DNA from: Mangrovibacillus cuniculi
Lineage (GTDB): Bacteria; Bacillota; Bacilli; Bacillales; R1DC41
Direction of reading: 5' to 3'
DNA length: 64,000 nucleotides
Assembly (NCBI RefSeq): GCF_015482585.1
Contig: NZ_CP049742.1
Span: forward strand, 392,501-456,500
This document shows positions 10,085 to 54,250 of the stretch, piece after piece. How positions within the stretch are numbered: position 1 is the first letter of the stretch; each line of letters starts with the position of its first letter. The notes beneath the pieces are model-generated. The model did no database searches, was not told the DNA's origin, and saw nothing but the letters and a program-made list of their open reading frames with translations. The position numbers and the translations under genes were made by a program.

Positions 10085-10438
10085 AGCGCTTAAGCCACCG
10101 GGTAGGAGCGGGACGGAAGGCGACAAAGTGGTTAAGTCGCCATGCGGGAGCGGGAGAGATGGCGACAAAAGGGTTAAGTCGCCATGTGGGAGGGGGAGAG
10201 ATGGCGACAAAAGGGTTAAGTCGCCGTGTGGGAGGGGGAGAGATGGCGACAAAAGGGTTAAGTCGCCGTGTGGGAGGGGAGAGATGGCGACAAAAGGGTT
10301 AAGTCGCCATGTGGGAGCGGGAGAGATGGCGGCAAAAGGGTTAAGTCGCCATGTGTAGAGAACAATCAGTGGTACAAAAGCGGTTAAGCCGCTGGAAAGG
10401 TGAAGGAAAAACGGGTACAAAAGCGCTTAAGCCGCCAC
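10085..10438. repeat. Tandem palindrome array A (42-bp units)
   Basis: About eight units of 42 bp lie between convergent genes. Anchors (start of ATGGCGAC or its variant) fall at 10117, 10159, 10201, 10243, 10284 and 10326; further diverged units follow at about 10368 and 10410. Each central unit holds GGCGAC, 11 nt, GTCGCC, able to form a hairpin, then a purine-rich GGGAGNGGGAGAG spacer. The outer units drift toward GCGCTTAAGCCGCC, the form found in array D. Confidence 0.95.
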
Positions 10439-13925: not shown

Positions 13926-14792
13926 ATGAAGAAGCAAATAGCGGATTTAACAAACAACCGACTACAAATGCTGACGAACTCCAACATGAAATCTGTGTGT
14001 CCAACAATGGAGCAGAGAGCGAAATTAGCAAAGGTACAAAATAATGAAATACGAAAAGCCATGGCAAAAGGAAAGATAAAAGATCAGTTTCAAAACGGTG
14101 ATTATACGTATGTTCATTACGATGTGCATTTTTCCTTTTATCGAGTCCAAGGGAAGAGGCACTATATGGAGGAACTGGTAGAAAACCGAGTGGCTTCTTT
14201 TTTTAAAGACGAGTTGTATGATGATTATGAATGGTTACCGGAAGAAGAGGAAACAGAAGAGAGTCTGTTACCTGATTCTTCAGATGAACGAGTTGCTTTT
14301 GTATACGATAGGCGTAAAGCTGTACAATACGCAGAACAATATTGGAATAAACCGAATCCTGCATACAAATACTTTGAGAACAATTGTACTAATTATATTT
14401 CTCAATGTTTGCGCGCTGGGGGAGCTCCAATGAGAGGAAATCCAAATAGAGGTTCGGGGTGGTGGTATACAGGATCATCTTGGAGCTGGAGTTGGGCAGT
14501 AGCACATGCGTTTCAAGGTTATTTTGCTAATTCAAAGACTGGTCTTCGAGCAAGACGAGTAACTGATGCAAGCCAATTAATTCTAGGAGATATCATTTGT
14601 TACGACTTTCAAGGAGATGGTAGGTTTGATCACTCCACCATTGTAACAGCGAAAGATGAAAACGGAATGCCTTTAGTAAATGCCAATACGTACAACAGTC
14701 GAATGAGATATTGGGCGTACGAGGATTCTACTGCGTATACGCCAAATATAAAGTATCGTTTTTATCATATTTTAGATGACAATTCTAGGTAA
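13926..14792 (+). CDS. Amidase domain protein, YhbB-like
   Basis: A 288-residue protein with a C-terminal putative amidase domain (Amidase_6 family). The catalytic-type Cys lies in YFENNCTNYISQCLRAGGAPMRG and the later His in GRFDHSTIVT. The N-terminal 120 residues are charged and lack a signal peptide, so it is probably cytosolic or made inside the forespore or mother cell. GTAGGAGG precedes the ATG. It sits between queG and trmL as yhbB does in B. subtilis. Function beyond the fold is unknown. Confidence 0.87.
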   Translation: MKKQIADLTNNRLQMLTNSNMKSVCPTMEQRAKLAKVQNNEIRKAMAKGKIKDQFQNGDYTYVHYDVHFSFYRVQGKRHYMEELVENRVASFFKDELYDDYEWLPEEEETEESLLPDSSDERVAFVYDRRKAVQYAEQYWNKPNPAYKYFENNCTNYISQCLRAGGAPMRGNPNRGSGWWYTGSSWSWSWAVAHAFQGYFANSKTGLRARRVTDASQLILGDIICYDFQGDGRFDHSTIVTAKDENGMPLVNANTYNSRMRYWAYEDSTAYTPNIKYRFYHILDDNSR

Positions 14793-19626: not shown

Positions 19627-19635
19627 ATTCTTGGG

Positions 19636-19665
19636 AAAGGACTCCGAAAGTAGGGGTCTTTTTTG
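19636..19665 (+). terminator. Terminator of yhbH
   Basis: Stem AAGGACTCC / GGGGTCTT with a GAAAGTA loop, followed by T6. Confidence 0.75.
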
Positions 19666-19717: not shown

Positions 19718-20690
19718 AATCTTGCAGAGCACCTGATGAAGGAAAAGCATTGTCAGGTGTCCCATGAGAGCGTCTTGCGGATCACCTAAAGGGTTAAAAG
19801 TGATGTCAGGTGTTCCAGGAGAACGTCTTGCGGAACACCTAAAGGGTTAAAAGTGATGTCAGGTGTCCCGGGGGAGCGTCTTGCGGAGCACCTGAGGGGT
19901 TAAAAGTGATGTCAGGTGTTCCAGGAGAGCGTCTTGCGGAGCACCTGAGGGGTTAAAAGTGATGTCAGGTATTCCAGGAGAGCGTCTTGCGGAACACCTG
20001 AATGGTAGAAAGTGATGTCAAGTGTCCCAGGAGAACGTCTTGCGGAGCACCTGATGAAGGAAAAGCATTGTCAGATGACCTGCGAGAACATCCTGCGGAA
20101 TAGCAGAAGAGCAAATCCCGGCGTCAGGTATACCGCAGGAACGTCCCGCGGTATAGCAGAAGCGCAAATCCCGACGTCAGGTATACCGCAGGAGCGTCCC
20201 TCGGTATAGCAGAAGAGCAAATCCCGCCGTCAGGTATACCGCAGGAACGTCCCGCGGTATAGCAGAAGCACAAATCCCGTCGTCAGGTATACCAGAGGAG
20301 CGTCCCTCGGTATAGCAGAAGAGCAAATCCCGTCGTCAGGTATACCAGAGGAGTGTGCCGCGGTATAGCAGAAGAGCAAATCCCGTCGTCAGGTATACCA
20401 GAGGAGTGTGCCGCGGTATAGCAGAAGAGCAGATCCCGTCGTCAGGTATACCAGAGGAACGTGCCGCGGTATAGGAGAAGAGCAGATCCCGTAGTTAGGT
20501 ATACCGCAGGAGCGTGCCGCGGTATAGGAGAAGAGCAGATCCCGTCGTCAGGTATACCAGAGGAGCGTGCCGCGGTATAGCAGAAGAGCAAATCCCGTCG
20601 TCAGGTATACCGCAGGAGTGTCCCGCGGTATAGCAGAAGAGCAAATCCCGTCGTCAGGTATACCAGAGGAACTTGAACCCATAGTCAAAA
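19718..20690. repeat. Tandem palindrome array B (18 units of exactly 53 bp)
   Basis: The loop anchor (CGTC or variant) recurs at 19771 and every 53 bp to 20672, 17 intervals without a single net indel. The first six units have arms AGGTGTTCC / GGAGCACCT; the unit at 20089 is a hybrid; the remaining units have arms GTATACCGC (or TATACC) / GCGGTATA. The loop core AGRRCGTC is common to both. It lies between convergent yhbH and the acetate-transporter-like gene and has no coding potential. Confidence 0.97.
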
Positions 20691-20743: not shown

Positions 20744-20778
20744 ACAAAAAAACCGCCTGCAAATGTACTTTGCAGACA
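20744..20778 (-). terminator. Terminator of the acetate-transporter-like gene
   Basis: On the minus strand, stem GTCTGCAAA / TTTGCAGGC, then T7. Confidence 0.85.
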
Positions 20779-20790
20779 GCTCATAACAAC

Positions 20791-22150: not shown

Positions 22151-22216
22151 CTCTGTTTCTTTTTTTGACAAAGTTCGCTATGATGAAATGGAGCGACAAA
22201 CTTCATAAGTAACAGA

Positions 22217-22425
22217 CAAAGGTGTTCCGAATTTTCGGACTTAAAAGGGAAGTTGGTGAAAATCCAGCGCGGTCCCGCCACTGTAAGTGTGAAGCAATGC
22301 CAAGTAAGTTCCACTGTAGCAAAATTGCTATGGGAAGGAGTTGGGATTGCTGCTTTAGCACGAGCCAGGAGACCTGCCTATTGTCTAGCACCAAGAGACC
22401 TACGAGGATAGGGTGGTGTGCGACG
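22217..22425 (+). ncRNA. Cobalamin (AdoCbl) riboswitch
   Basis: Hallmarks of the cobalamin aptamer appear in order: AAAAGGGAA, GGTGAAAATCC, GCGGTCCCGCCACTGTAA and GCCAGGAGACCTGCC. It precedes btuF. Downstream, the 10-bp hairpin AAGTGTTTTT / AAAAACGCTT (22453-22478) and the terminator at 22486 form a plausible expression platform, so transcription should stop when B12 is plentiful. Confidence 0.95.
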
Positions 22426-26232: not shown

Positions 26233-27039
26233 ATGAGTATAATTGGATTTATCGGCTGTGGAAATATGGCTCAAGCTATTATCGGAGGTATTTTAGCTTC
26301 TGACTATGTACCAGCTGATCACATTATTGCTAGTGCACGTTCTCCTAAAACGTTGGAAAATGCAGCAACTCAATTCGGAATTCGTACGACTCTACATAAT
26401 AAAGATGTGGCAAAAGAAGCAGATGTCCTATTCTTAGCAGTAAAGCCAAATCAATATGCAAAAGTAATGACCATGATTTCTGACTATCTGAAAGAAGACG
26501 TTTTAATCGTCAGCATGGCAGCGGGGGTAACCATTAACCAAATGGAAGACACCTTAGGGGACGACCGTAAAATCGTGCGCACCATGCCTAATACCCCTTC
26601 TTTTGTTCGACAAGGAATGACTGCTTACACGGTGAATGGGAAGGTAAGTAAAGATGAGAAGTATTTAATCAATGAGTTGTTAGAGCAGTTTGGGAAAGCG
26701 GAAGAGATTTCCGAACAATTGATGGACGCTATTCCAGCAGTGAGCGGATCCTCGCCTGCTTACGGATTCGTGATGATTGAAGCGATGGGGGACGCAGCTG
26801 TAAAACAAGGAATCCCTCGTGATCAAGCGTATCGCATGGCAGCACAAAGTATGCTAGGTGCAGCGGCGATGGTACTAGAAACTGGTGACCATCCGGCATT
26901 ACTGAAAGACCGAGTTTGTTCGCCGGGCGGCGCAACAATCGAAGCAGTGATGGAGTTAGAGCGAAGTGGATTCCGTCACTCCATTCAATCGGCGATGGAA
27001 GCATGTACAAATAAGTCCATTGCGATGGGGAAAAAGTGA
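26233..27039 (+). CDS. proC: Pyrroline-5-carboxylate reductase
   Basis: Last enzyme of proline synthesis, 268 residues. The NAD(P) loop is IGFIGCGNMAQAIIGGIL and the C-terminal signature DAIPAVSGSSPAYGFVMIEAMGDAAVKQGIPRDQAYRMAAQ followed by CSPGGATIEAV is diagnostic. AAAGGAGG precedes the ATG. Bacilli often carry several paralogues (proI, proG, proH), so the exact role (housekeeping or osmotic) cannot be decided. A terminator and array C follow. Confidence 0.94.
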   Translation: MSIIGFIGCGNMAQAIIGGILASDYVPADHIIASARSPKTLENAATQFGIRTTLHNKDVAKEADVLFLAVKPNQYAKVMTMISDYLKEDVLIVSMAAGVTINQMEDTLGDDRKIVRTMPNTPSFVRQGMTAYTVNGKVSKDEKYLINELLEQFGKAEEISEQLMDAIPAVSGSSPAYGFVMIEAMGDAAVKQGIPRDQAYRMAAQSMLGAAAMVLETGDHPALLKDRVCSPGGATIEAVMELERSGFRHSIQSAMEACTNKSIAMGKK

Positions 27040-27048
27040 ATTTGGGAG

Positions 27049-27078
27049 CCTCCACTATACTTAGTGGGGGTTTTTTCT
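27049..27078 (+). terminator. Terminator of proC
   Basis: Stem CCTCCACTA / TAGTGGGGG followed by T6. Confidence 0.88.
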
Positions 27079-27084
27079 TTACTG

Positions 27085-27660
27085 GGGAGGGCTATTCTCA
27101 TCTTGGGTGAGGATTTTCGTGTTGAGAAGAGTATCGAGGGCTTCTATTCTCATCTGGAGGGTGGATTTCCGTTGCGAGAAGGGTATAGAGGGCTTCTATT
27201 CTCATCTGGAGGGTGGATTTCCGTTGCGAGAAGGGTATAGAGAGCTTCTATTCTCATCTGGAGAGTGACTTTCCGTTGTGAGAAGGGTATAGAGAGCTTC
27301 TATTCTCATCTGGAGGGTGGATTTCCGTTGTGAGAAGGGTATAGAGGGCTTCTATTCTCATCTGGAGAGTGACTTTCCGTTGCGAGGAGGGTATAGAGAG
27401 CTTCTATTCTCATCTGGAGGGTGAATATCCGTTGTGAGAAGGGTATAGAGGGCTTCTATTCTCTTCTGGAGTGTAAATTTCCGTTGCGAGAAGGGTATAG
27501 AGAGCTTCTATTCTCATCTGGAGGGTGGATTTCCGTCGCGAGAAGGGTATAGAGGGCTTCTATTCTCATCTGGAGGGTGGTTTTCCGTCGCGAGAAGAGT
27601 TTAAGGAGCTCTTATTCTCTTCTAGAGCGAGGATCTCAGTCGCTAGGAGAGTTTAAGCCT
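27085..27660. repeat. Tandem palindrome array C (52-bp units)
   Basis: About eleven units lie between convergent proC and the SIMPL gene. CTTCTATTCTC starts at 27141 and recurs every 52 bp to 27557, with a last diverged unit at 27609 (nine exact intervals). Each unit has TTCTC ... GAGAA outer arms and an inner GGA ... TTCC. Its sequence is unlike arrays B, E, F and G, but the length is nearly the same. Confidence 0.95.
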
Positions 27661-27672
27661 AGAAATACAAGG

Positions 27673-27704
27673 AAGCCGCAGAGTCTCCAGCGACTTCACG
27701 GCTT
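27673..27704 (-). terminator. Probable terminator of the SIMPL gene
   Basis: Stem AAGCCG-AGAGTC / GACTT-CGGCTT, 12 bp past the stop. The T run after it on the minus strand is weak. Confidence 0.55.
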
Positions 27705-27715
27705 AACGAGATTGC

Positions 27716-28378
27716 TTATAAATGAAAAATAACGCCAATCGATGCCGATACGGAAAGTGTAGATGGCGGGGTCACCGGTGTTGCCGCACTTTTAACCATA
27801 GATTGAAAAGGTACCGGAACGGAAGTTTGTTCTAATTCCTCATAGAACTGAACTGGAACTAATTGATATTCATTGCCATATCCCGCTGCTTGTGCGAGGA
27901 TAGATGCTTTCGTATACGCATCTTGATAAGCGAGCTGCAGCGCTTGTTGTTCTGCTGGCCCTGTGTCGTTAACTGTAAATTCAATGGACTGAACTAGTGT
28001 TGCCCCACTGTTAACAGCCTCATCTATTACTTTACCCGTAGCGCTTGGTGGTTTAATAGTGACTAGAAATAGATGTCTAACTTGATAACCTTTAATTTGA
28101 GAACTTCCACTAGTTTGATAGTCGTACTGTGGATAGATCGAGTAGTCGACAGTTGCGACAGAATCTTTATCGATACCAAGACCATACAAGGCTTGAAGTA
28201 GATTCTCACTTTGCTGAGCATTTTGCCTTTGTGCTTTCTGTAAGGAAGCGTCCTCCGTCTCCACACCGACACGAAGGAGTGCAGTATCTGGTTGTACCTG
28301 AACAACTCCCTTACCAATCACTTGAATTTCCGCTGTGTAAAAAGGACCTTGAGACTCATTTTGGTTAGATCGTCTCAT
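27716..28378 (-). CDS. SIMPL domain protein (DUF541)
   Basis: A 220-residue SIMPL-domain protein. Visible features are the opening beta motif AEIQVIGKGVVQVQPDTALLRVGVETEDASLQKAQRQNA, VATVDYSIYPQYDY and YQVRHLFLVTIKP, and the helical AYQDAYTKASILAQAAG. Unlike many SIMPL proteins it has no signal peptide. The proline-rich coat-like gene ends 3 bp upstream, so the two form an operon and may both be spore-surface proteins. Function of the domain is poorly known. Confidence 0.8.
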   Translation of the reverse strand: MRRSNQNESQGPFYTAEIQVIGKGVVQVQPDTALLRVGVETEDASLQKAQRQNAQQSENLLQALYGLGIDKDSVATVDYSIYPQYDYQTSGSSQIKGYQVRHLFLVTIKPPSATGKVIDEAVNSGATLVQSIEFTVNDTGPAEQQALQLAYQDAYTKASILAQAAGYGNEYQLVPVQFYEELEQTSVPVPFQSMVKSAATPVTPPSTLSVSASIGVIFHL

Positions 28379-29009: not shown

Positions 29010-29118
29010 GCGGCTTAAGCGCTTAAGTCGCAGGGGGGAGTGAGGGGAAAAGGGTACAAAAGCGCTTAAGCCGCCGTGGAGAGTAAGGGAAAGCGGGTAC
29101 AAAAGCGCTTAAGCCGCC
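29010..29118. repeat. Short tandem array D (42-bp units)
   Basis: Three units with anchor AGCGCTTAAG at 29018, 29061 and 29103 (43 and 42 bp apart). The unit matches the diverged edge units of array A (GGTACAAAAGCGCTTAAGC then CGCC). It lies between two minus-strand genes. Confidence 0.85.
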
Positions 29119-41035: not shown

Positions 41036-41650
41036 TGTCGCCGCGGTATAGCAGGGGGAGGTGATGATGTTTAGGTATACCGGGGGAAGTCGCTGCGGTA
41101 TAGCAGGGACGGGGAAAAGCGGTTTAGGTATATCAGGGGAAGCTGCCGCGGTATAGCAGAGAGGCGGAAATGTGGTCCAGGTATACCAGGGGAGGCTGCT
41201 GCGGTATAGCAGAGAGGAAGAAATACAAGTTAGGTATATCGCAAGAGCGTCTCGCGGACCACAAGAAGAGGAAAACCGAGGTCTAGGTAACCAGCAAGAG
41301 CGTCTCGCGGACCACGAGAAGCAGAAAATCGATAGTCAGGTGTCCCACAAGAGCGTCTCGCGGACCACGAGAAGAAGAAAACCGAGGTCTAGGTGTCCCG
41401 CAAGAGCGTCTCGCGGACCACGAGAAGAAGAAAACCGAGGTCTAGGTGTTCCGCAAGAGCGTCTCGCGGACCACGAGAAGAAGAAAATCGATAGTCAGGT
41501 GTCCCGCAAGAGCGTCTCGCGGACCACGAGAAGAAGAAAACCGAGGTCTAGGTGTCCCGCAAGAGCGTCTCGCGGACCACGAGAAGAAGGAAATCGATAG
41601 TCAGGTGTCCCACAAGAGCGTCTCGCGGACCACGAGAAAAACAGAATCCT
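41036..41650. repeat. Tandem palindrome array E (53-bp units, two arm types)
   Basis: The first units carry GGTATACC ... GGTATAGC arms; from 41236 the units carry GTGTCCCGC ... GCGGACCAC arms. The core anchor falls at 41195, 41248, 41301 and then every 53 bp to 41619, so the register is kept through the arm change. It lies between the convergent protease and thioredoxin genes. Confidence 0.95.
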
Positions 41651-48514: not shown

Positions 48515-49290
48515 CGCTGCGGTATAGCAGAGAAGGTCAAAATCATTTTAGCTATACCGCAAGAATATCTCCAGGACCACAAGAAGAGGAAAATCCAGGT
48601 TCAGGTGCCCCACAAGAGCGTCTCGCGGACCACGAGAAGAGGAAAATCCAGGTTCAGGTGCCCCACAAGAGCGTCTCGCGGACCACGAGAAGTGAAAAAC
48701 CAAGGTTCAGGTGCCCCACAAGAGCGTCTCGCGGACCACGAGAAGCAGAAAATCCAGGTTCAGGTGCCCCACAAGAGCGTCTCGCGGACCACGAGAAGCA
48801 GAAAATCCAGGTTCAGGTGTCCCGCAAGAGCGTCTCGCGGACCACGAGAAGAGAAAAATCCAGGTTCAGGTGTCCCGCAAGAGCGTCTCGCGGACCACGA
48901 GAAGAGAAAAATCCAGGTTCAGGTGTCCTGCAAGAGCGTCTCGCGGACCACGAGAAGAGGAAAATCCAGGTTCAGGTGCCCCACAAGAGCGTCTCGCGGA
49001 CCACGAGAAGAGGAAAATCCAGGTTCAGGTGCCCCACAAGAGTGTCTCGCGGACCACGAGAAGAAGAAAATCCGGGTTCAGGTGCCCCACAAGAGCGTCT
49101 CGCGGACCACGAGAAGCGGAAAATCTAGGTTCAGGTGCCCCACAAGAGCGTCTCGCGGACCACGAGAAGCGGTAAATTCAGGTTCAGGTGCCCCACAAGA
49201 GCGTCTCGCGGACCACGAGAAGCGGTAAATTCAGGTTCAGGTGCCCCACAATAACACCTCGCCGACCACCAAACGCGGAAATCAGAGCAA
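48515..49290. repeat. Tandem palindrome array F (12 exact 53-bp units plus edges)
   Basis: The core CGTCTCGCGG starts at 48619 and recurs every 53 bp to 49202 (11 intervals, one CGTC-to-TGTC variant). A GGTATAGC-type edge unit precedes it and a degraded unit follows. Units match array E (arms around GGTGCCCC / GCGGACCAC and a CTCG / CGAG mini-stem). It lies between two plus-strand genes, yhcX and pgcA. Confidence 0.97.
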
Positions 49291-51280: not shown

Positions 51281-51555
51281 TGACCTAACGCGCGCCTTTT
51301 GCTTTTCGTGGTGTCTAGCTCCAGGTGCGCAACCGCTCGGGAAAGTTCAAAAGCCCTCCGTTGGCTGAAGAGCTGCCTACTCGGTCTTATGAACTTCCTG
51401 CCGCGGCTAAACGCGCGCCTTTCGCCTTTCGATATGTCTAGCTCCAGGTGCGCAACCGCTCGGAAAAGTCCGAAAGCCCTCCGTTGGCTGGAGAGCTGCC
51501 TACTCGGTCTTCCGAACTTTTCTGCCGCGGCTGAACGCGCGCCTTGCGCTTTTCT
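51281..51555 (+). repeat. Dispersed repeat R1, two tandem copies
   Basis: Two units of about 118 bp (from 51309 and 51427) each start GTCTAGCTCCAGGTGCGC, contain an arm-loop-arm segment (GAAAAGTCCGAAAGCCCTCC region against GGTCTTCCGAACTTTTCTGC region) and end AACGCGCGCC. A partial tail precedes them. They match 36013-36130. Each unit could form a long hairpin. Confidence 0.85.
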
Positions 51556-54003: not shown

Positions 54004-54250
54004 TTATAGCCAACGGTATAGCAGAAAGCGGAAAATCGTGATTAGGTATACCAGAGGAGCTTCCAGTGATATAGCAGAGAGCGGAAAATCGTGTTTAGGT
54101 ATACCAGTGGAGGGTCCAGCGATATAGCAGAGAGCGGAAAATCGTGATTAGGTATACCGGGGGAGAGTCCAGCGGTATAGGAGAGAGCCGAAAATCGTGA
54201 TTAGGTATACCAGAGGAGCGTCCAGCGGTATAGCAGAAAGCAGAAAACTA
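54004..54250. repeat. Tandem palindrome array G (53-bp units)
   Basis: Four to five units with anchors at 54060, 54113, 54166 and 54219. Arms TATACC ... GGTATA flank an AGNGTCC core, matching the second half of array B and the start of array E. It lies between the convergent yhdA- and yhdB-like genes. Confidence 0.93.

Follow-up and report, generated by a model that had tools for sequence, protein, structure and literature searches.

Fork-oriented tandem arrays of near-whole-turn period on a Bacillaceae chromosome, with 53-bp units conserved in core sequence and spacer length

Introduction

The usual readings of intergenic repeats in bacteria are RNA hairpins, debris of mobile elements, and markers for typing. 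Polar guide motifs, including the FtsK/SpoIIIE recognition sequences and Chi, are short octamers or pentamers, which are dispersed and oriented by replichore. Most REP and BIME repeats are situated between genes that are co-directional or convergent (PMC3733652), and transposition of IS200/IS605 elements into the lagging-strand template is established (PMC6006769). Noc (NBS) and SlmA sites are single palindromes, found chromosome-wide but scarce at the terminus, and the portion of PMC4331003 cited here does not state polarity among their features. Units of the archaeal Borg tandem repeats are perfect and nearly all unique in sequence, with about half in ORFs (PMC9879509), and CRISPR arrays combine regular repeats with unique spacers.

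Here we describe at least 72 intergenic tandem arrays, sorted to eight reference sequences, on the 3.14-Mb chromosome of the Bacillaceae bacterium Mangrovibacillus cuniculi. With the FtsK/SpoIIIE guides they share orientation by replichore (66/66 arrays scored); unlike these guides and Chi, they are tandem and thin out toward the terminus. Over the 37.3 kb of arrays, the SpoIIIE/FtsK octamer GAGAAGGG has 13 copies against 5.8 in shuffles without being the repeated core, and AGCGG has 145 against 102; none of the Chi, SpoIIIE or Noc motifs matches a repeated core. As in the REP/BIME/REPIN elements and their RAYT enzymes (PMC3733652 and PMC6006769), there are many extragenic copies with inverted arms, a preference for gene ends (28 convergent and 25 co-directional gaps among 65 arrays), several families per genome, and a Y1 transposase. 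Unlike the elements portrayed there, the arrays are built head-to-tail at a fixed period in a direction set by replication, inverted pairs do not predominate (all 66 scored arrays take one direction), and no solitary copies occur among the matches listed. The REP terminal tag, GTAG/CGTC, is likewise lacking, as CGTC lies in the loop and GTAG is under-represented in the arrays (84 versus 329 in shuffles). The arrays resemble Noc/SlmA sites (PMC4331003) in being chromosome-wide but scarce at the terminus, where the last quarter holds 2 of 65, and differ from them in being tandem; the NBS palindrome has no exact copy in the 65 arrays. Unlike the Borg repeats in the cited account (PMC9879509), the units are diverged, common to several arrays and intergenic, and unlike those of CRISPR, the spacers repeat within an array, at 0.77-0.79 identity. 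Likeness to BIMEs, Noc/SlmA sites and translocase guides is incomplete, a tested feature of each being absent here. A search of titles and abstract openings in the open-licence literature, a scope outside which most subscription papers fall, found no prior description of such arrays.

Results

Array B and its surroundings

The analysis began from a 64,000-nucleotide stretch of the chromosome, hereafter the window, and from one array within it, array B. On the left it follows a DUF444 gene (PF04285; 18454-19626, + strand), and on the right it faces a convergent gene of the GPR1/FUN34/yaaH family (PF01184; 20791-21576, - strand), both drawn, like all genes here, from longest-ORF calls. A terminator-like stem lies after the DUF444 gene and before the array (19634-19664, +), and that of the right-hand gene lies on the far side (20750-20782, -); as a scan this is weak evidence, since shuffles lead one to expect 1.1 sites where 2 were found. 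The promoter-like scan found no site at array B.

Tandem Repeats Finder scores at period 53 (457 and 827) are far above chance, and the 53-bp register reported in an earlier note holds exactly: units begin at 19756 + 53n and the loop anchor at 19771 + 53n, with zero indels over n = 0-16, giving 17 complete units and a truncated 18th (unit 17, 20657), reduced to its left arm and a portion of the loop. The switch of arm type and the hybrid also stand. A 53b block (19718-20073, +), made up of a left-edge partial unit and units 0-5 with arms GGTGTYCC..GGANCACC, gives way to hybrid unit 6 (20074-20126, +) and then to a 53a block (20127-20674, +), made up of units 7-16, with arms GGTATACC..CGGTATAG, and the truncated unit 17; the two blocks and the hybrid have a common backbone. 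The six units of the first type are not, as had been supposed, identical in their arms, with GGTGTTCC exactly in 2/6, GGTGTCCC in two, GGTATTCC in one and AGTGTCCC in one, nor is the AGRRCGTC loop core strictly kept, as CGTC occurs, within the loop, in 10 of the 18 units. The spacer TGATGAAGGAAAAGCATTGTCA is present at each end of the 53b block (19718-19755 and 20053-20073) and is absent between them. From their sequence, the inner 53b units look as if they had expanded between two older ones.

Arm pairing within and between sub-families

The earlier note held that both arms change together such that pairing is preserved, which would suit transcribed hairpin arrays, whose RNA or single-strand stems would be under pairing selection, perhaps as small RNAs, terminators or 3' stabilizers. 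The arms of each unit can indeed pair, and counted naively in array B alone, 93.1% of cells of the 6-bp stem are paired, a level reached in 0/500 shuffles; with two inner pairs added the figure is 80.1%, still above every shuffle. Scanning of the fetched 53-bp arrays, 28 in number, recovered 190 53a and 122 53b units, and the pairing and covariation tests were confined to the distinct units among these (179 of 53a and 109 of 53b, 288 in all, from this genome). Within 53a, 73 one-sided stem changes kept the pair in 27 cases and broke it in 46, and two-sided changes numbered zero. Within 53b, 55 one-sided changes left a pair and 52 did not, compared with six and four, respectively, of the two-sided changes; moreover, in the 53b consensus two stem pairs of the six are T-C and C-A, and most 53b units are unable to pair there. 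Ranked by mutual information over the pooled sub-families, pairs 4-28 and 6-26 stand 9th and 5th of 1225, among other columns that mark a from b (e.g., 4-12 and 12-28). In 53a alone no stem pair ranks high, the best being 299th of 1225, and in 53b alone pair 6-26 ranks 14th of 1225, yet is paired in just 16/109 units. The signal in array B is misleading because one inherited difference between two sub-families is counted many times: the paired arm change is mainly a single difference between 53a and 53b. Stem covariation was rejected as an explanation of the arm change: a change in one arm often breaks the stem and is rarely compensated in the other, and the covariation check suggested in the earlier note gave no excess of compensatory changes within either sub-family. 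Judged on the aligned units, the arms act as conserved sequence and not as covarying stems.

Other evidence on transcribed hairpins is divided. Folding of 61 of the 65 arrays was stronger on both strands than in dinucleotide-shuffled controls (mean z -2.65 and -3.32; 15 shuffles each). Within window positions 26980-27760 there are six terminator-like sites, five inside the 52-bp array at 27092 and one, on the + strand, before it, together with one promoter-like site, and on this pattern the 52-bp family there could act as terminators. Against this, terminator-like sites shield array B on both sides, array orientation is independent of flanking transcription (see below), and an Rfam search of the window matched a cobalamin riboswitch, two tRNAs and nothing else. 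The riboswitch lies at 22203-22396 and scores 106.9 bits. On balance, we consider transcribed hairpins an improbable account.

A chromosome-wide set with fixed spacing

Similarity searches of the genome with three arrays of the window gave 44, 29 and 51 matches, and the stretches around these hold 65 intergenic arrays with a period of 42, 43, 52, 53 or 85. An extra 392 kb, sampled at spaced places, added seven arrays of period 52 or 53, some with a previously unseen core type, AACGTG, and others of the GACGGTC type. As the census derives from three queries and this sample, 72 is a lower bound and further families are likely. All 100 core matches listed, from a total of 180, lie inside arrays by reading, and no solitary copies were seen among them. 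Beside array B, the window itself contains a 42-bp array of the same set with the core GGCGACAAAAGGGTTAAGTCGCC (10105-10392), flanked on both sides by terminator-like sites; the 52-bp array (27092-27634), with its nearly palindromic unit; a 43-bp array of 2.4 copies between two - strand genes (29017-29118); a 53-bp array in which a 53a block is followed by 53b (41040-41638), again with terminator-like sites on both sides; a 53b array of 13.1 copies (48574-49269); and a 53a array of 4.5 copies (54010-54247), all on the + strand. A separate repeat (GTCTAGCTCCAGGTGCGC.. type), some 123-124 bp long, occurs in tandem at window 51287-51554 and at chromosome positions 328355-328745 and 849658-850000, one of the three places being on the terminus side.

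The 53-bp units, scanned on the strand given by their replichore, are spaced almost uniformly: the distance between neighbors in the 28 fetched arrays is 53 in 273/284 cases, 52 in seven and larger in four. This holds while spacers diverge, with 680 mismatches over 14 spacer columns in 262 adjacent same-type pairs. Spacer identity is 0.44 between arrays, where composition alone gives 0.32-0.33, and 0.77-0.79 within arrays, compared with 0.78-0.80 between and 0.87-0.89 within for core columns; within an array, neighboring units resemble each other more than distant ones. Cores are thus held by sequence and spacers, near-saturated in sequence, by length, and arrays are homogenized locally. Of the constraint on both spacing and pairing that the earlier note proposed, then, the part that concerns spacing survives, and the part that concerns pairing does not. 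The periods of the fetched families (42/43, 52/53 and 85) are near four, five or eight helical turns, in classes picked after they had been seen, and amount to 10.4, 10.5, 10.6 or 10.75 bp for each turn, with the result that phase drifts along long arrays.

Orientation and placement

Replichore arms were set from parS-like sites, which cluster at 2.58-2.76 Mb, and from GC skew, which reverses sign within 2.70-2.72 Mb and again within 1.12-1.18 Mb; on the right arm, skew is slightly negative in one stretch, at 3.083 Mb. When each array was scored on both strands, all 66 non-reference arrays pointed with fork movement, a count in which the 53a and 53b references derive from the replichore-stranded scan, and the other six references, among them the 42-bp array at 10105, are arrays excluded from it. 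The margin is clear in 65, the remaining one being the 52-bp array at window 27092 (0.67 versus 0.64). Strands of BLAST matches, likewise scored both ways, agree with the replichore in 43/44 and 51/51 rows for two queries, and the mixed strand of rows for the 52-bp query is explained by its nearly palindromic unit. Where both flanking genes run against the fork, the array still follows the fork (5/5), and on these grounds transcription was rejected as the orienting factor; opposed gaps are as frequent relative to co-directional ones as in the baseline (p 0.77). The ten genes that flank these five gaps gave six Pfam matches (HIT, permease, Mur ligase, TetR, ABC ATPase, and EamA), and three of the nine searched had no match. 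In the leading sense, the purine fraction is 0.658 over 65 arrays versus 0.530 in 784 windows. Purine richness was discarded as a general orienting feature, because in Bacillus fonticola the purine-richer strand, by reading, runs the opposite way.

Placed in fork direction, the 65 arrays occupy 25 co-directional, 28 convergent, five opposed and four divergent gaps, with one of unknown type and two lying behind presumed rRNA operons. These two, at 14423 and 2880115, appear divergent and were set apart in the count: both have an identical 105-aa ORF as the left "gene," which, we presume from its signature, runs antisense to an rRNA operon. Relative to baseline (77 co-directional, 28 convergent, 12 opposed, and 34 divergent), convergent gaps are enriched (28/64 versus 28/151, p 3e-4) and divergent gaps depleted (4/64 versus 34/151, p 0.003). 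By quarter of distance from the origin the 65 arrays number 22, 21, 20, and 2 (p 2e-6 for the terminus quarter), and the 392-kb sample is in weak agreement: 140 kb on the terminus side lacked arrays of such period, and 252 kb elsewhere had seven (p 0.045).

The enrichment in convergent gaps would be expected of BIME-like 3'-end elements, bound by gyrase or a similar protein, that absorb supercoils where transcription and forks meet, and the location of BIMEs and REPs described above counts for this reading. REP pairs, however, alternate in orientation, whereas the present arrays are head-to-tail and fork-following; four arrays occupy divergent gaps; and placement at gene ends is expected of any element that is excluded from promoters. 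We consider this explanation unlikely.

Arrays in other Bacillales

Homologues of array B were found in none of 40 genomes of the same order, none of which is of the same genus or family. Nonetheless, 93 loci from other Bacillales (80 + 13) hold arrays of unrelated sequence. Eighteen groups have a period between 30 and 70. Two, of period 36, lie in ORFs and were left out; the remaining 16, two of them in stop-free frames, have a period of 52 in eight cases, 41, 42, 62 or 63 in seven and 40 in one. The 41-42 and 62-63 periods mostly reflect multiples of a 20-21-bp unit, which leaves 52-53 as the class that stands apart. The DUF444 neighborhood is a recurrent site of unrelated arrays across species: directly downstream of DUF444 homologues there is a 20-bp array of 40 copies in B. 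fonticola (L151:7222-8030) and a 101-bp array at another locus (L103:7273-7679), and 52-bp arrays lie upstream at L086:4673-5690, L092:5390-5708 and L163:4971-5349.

Polarity extends to other species in varying degree. In C. massiliigabonensis, 24/24 rows agree in strand within each of three contigs, and the contig with a parS cluster near its start carries polar arrays out to 2.65 Mb. On the B. fonticola chromosome, 50 rows were merged by eye into 37 places, of which 33 match the arms defined by parS near coordinate 0; the query array itself, beside the DUF444 gene, is among the four exceptions. Polarity is weaker in B. tianshenii (3/3 on contig 5, 4/5 on contig 2, and one against one on contig 4).

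Such polarity, absolute in the M. cuniculi genome and present beyond it, is consistent with selfish or neutral satellites that spread via the single-stranded lagging-strand template, by a HUH/RAYT-like enzyme or by slippage, the fork setting their orientation and selection only clearing them from promoters. Local homogenization of spacers and avoidance of divergent gaps speak for this reading, as does the lagging-strand preference of IS200/IS605 elements noted above. The single Y1_Tnp match of the genome (IS200-like/RAYT-sized, 195 aa; - strand, L074:2269-2856, about 2436168-2436755 on the chromosome) lies some 100 bp from a 43/85-bp array, the one array beside it. Such satellites do not predict helical periods or a fixed length of saturated spacers, though, and solitary units were not encountered among the 100 core matches listed. 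C. massiliigabonensis has polar 52-bp arrays without a Y1_Tnp match, and among the Y1 loci fetched from other genomes (30 of 38 matches), 28/30 are without a repeat array within about 1.5 kb, leaving two with an array nearby. A RAYT as the general agent is unsupported on these two grounds. Two other genomes (L203 and L211) show 21/42-bp tandem arrays near IS200-like transposase genes. This is the main rival to the phased arrays discussed below; we regard it as possible, if rather doubtful.

Discussion

The arrays form families on one chromosome, keep register, conserve cores over spacers, follow replication, are scarce at the terminus and prefer convergent gene ends. As a set, they suggest a DNA element that operates at the level of the chromosome rather than RNA hairpins. 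We tentatively favor the explanation that they are phased, sequence-specific binding arrays for a putative protein, tied to replication or chromosome organization. Specific cores joined by spacers of fixed length, near whole helical turns, are what proteins positioned side by side on one face of a duplex would leave; polarity with the fork needs, in addition, a directional partner or directional copying.

Under this explanation, array B and the wider set would function as double-stranded DNA. The 53-bp unit would comprise a sequence-conserved core and a free spacer fixed in length, placing successive cores near the same helix face, five turns apart in the 53-bp arrays and four in the 42/43-bp families. 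A putative sequence-specific protein, probably one per core family, would bind adjacent units side by side, and the phased nucleoprotein array so formed may serve chromosome organization, segregation or a process linked to the fork. Polarity might then be imposed as the complex meets a directional process, either the fork or a translocase. Several points count against phased arrays: unrelated cores within one genome need several proteins, phase drifts in long arrays and the 20-bp arrays of B. fonticola are further off helical turns, polarity has exceptions elsewhere (4/37 places in B. fonticola, and mixed contigs in B. tianshenii), proteins that bind duplex DNA do not of themselves need polarity, and the excess of purines in the leading sense does not hold generally.

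More broadly, and with a little less assurance, Bacillaceae may carry an unrecognized class of polar, helically quantized satellite arrays, of four or five turns per unit and with sequences renewed by lineage, which would be docking scaffolds for proteins linked to replication or segregation, thinned at the terminus and oriented with the fork. Unrelated sequences, both in this genome and elsewhere in the order, converge on a small set of periods near whole turns, and in this genome also on fork direction. If confirmed, bacteria would possess a satellite-like DNA element in which geometry is kept rather than sequence, and the arrays would offer a handle on what reads the polarity of the chromosome outside the terminus.
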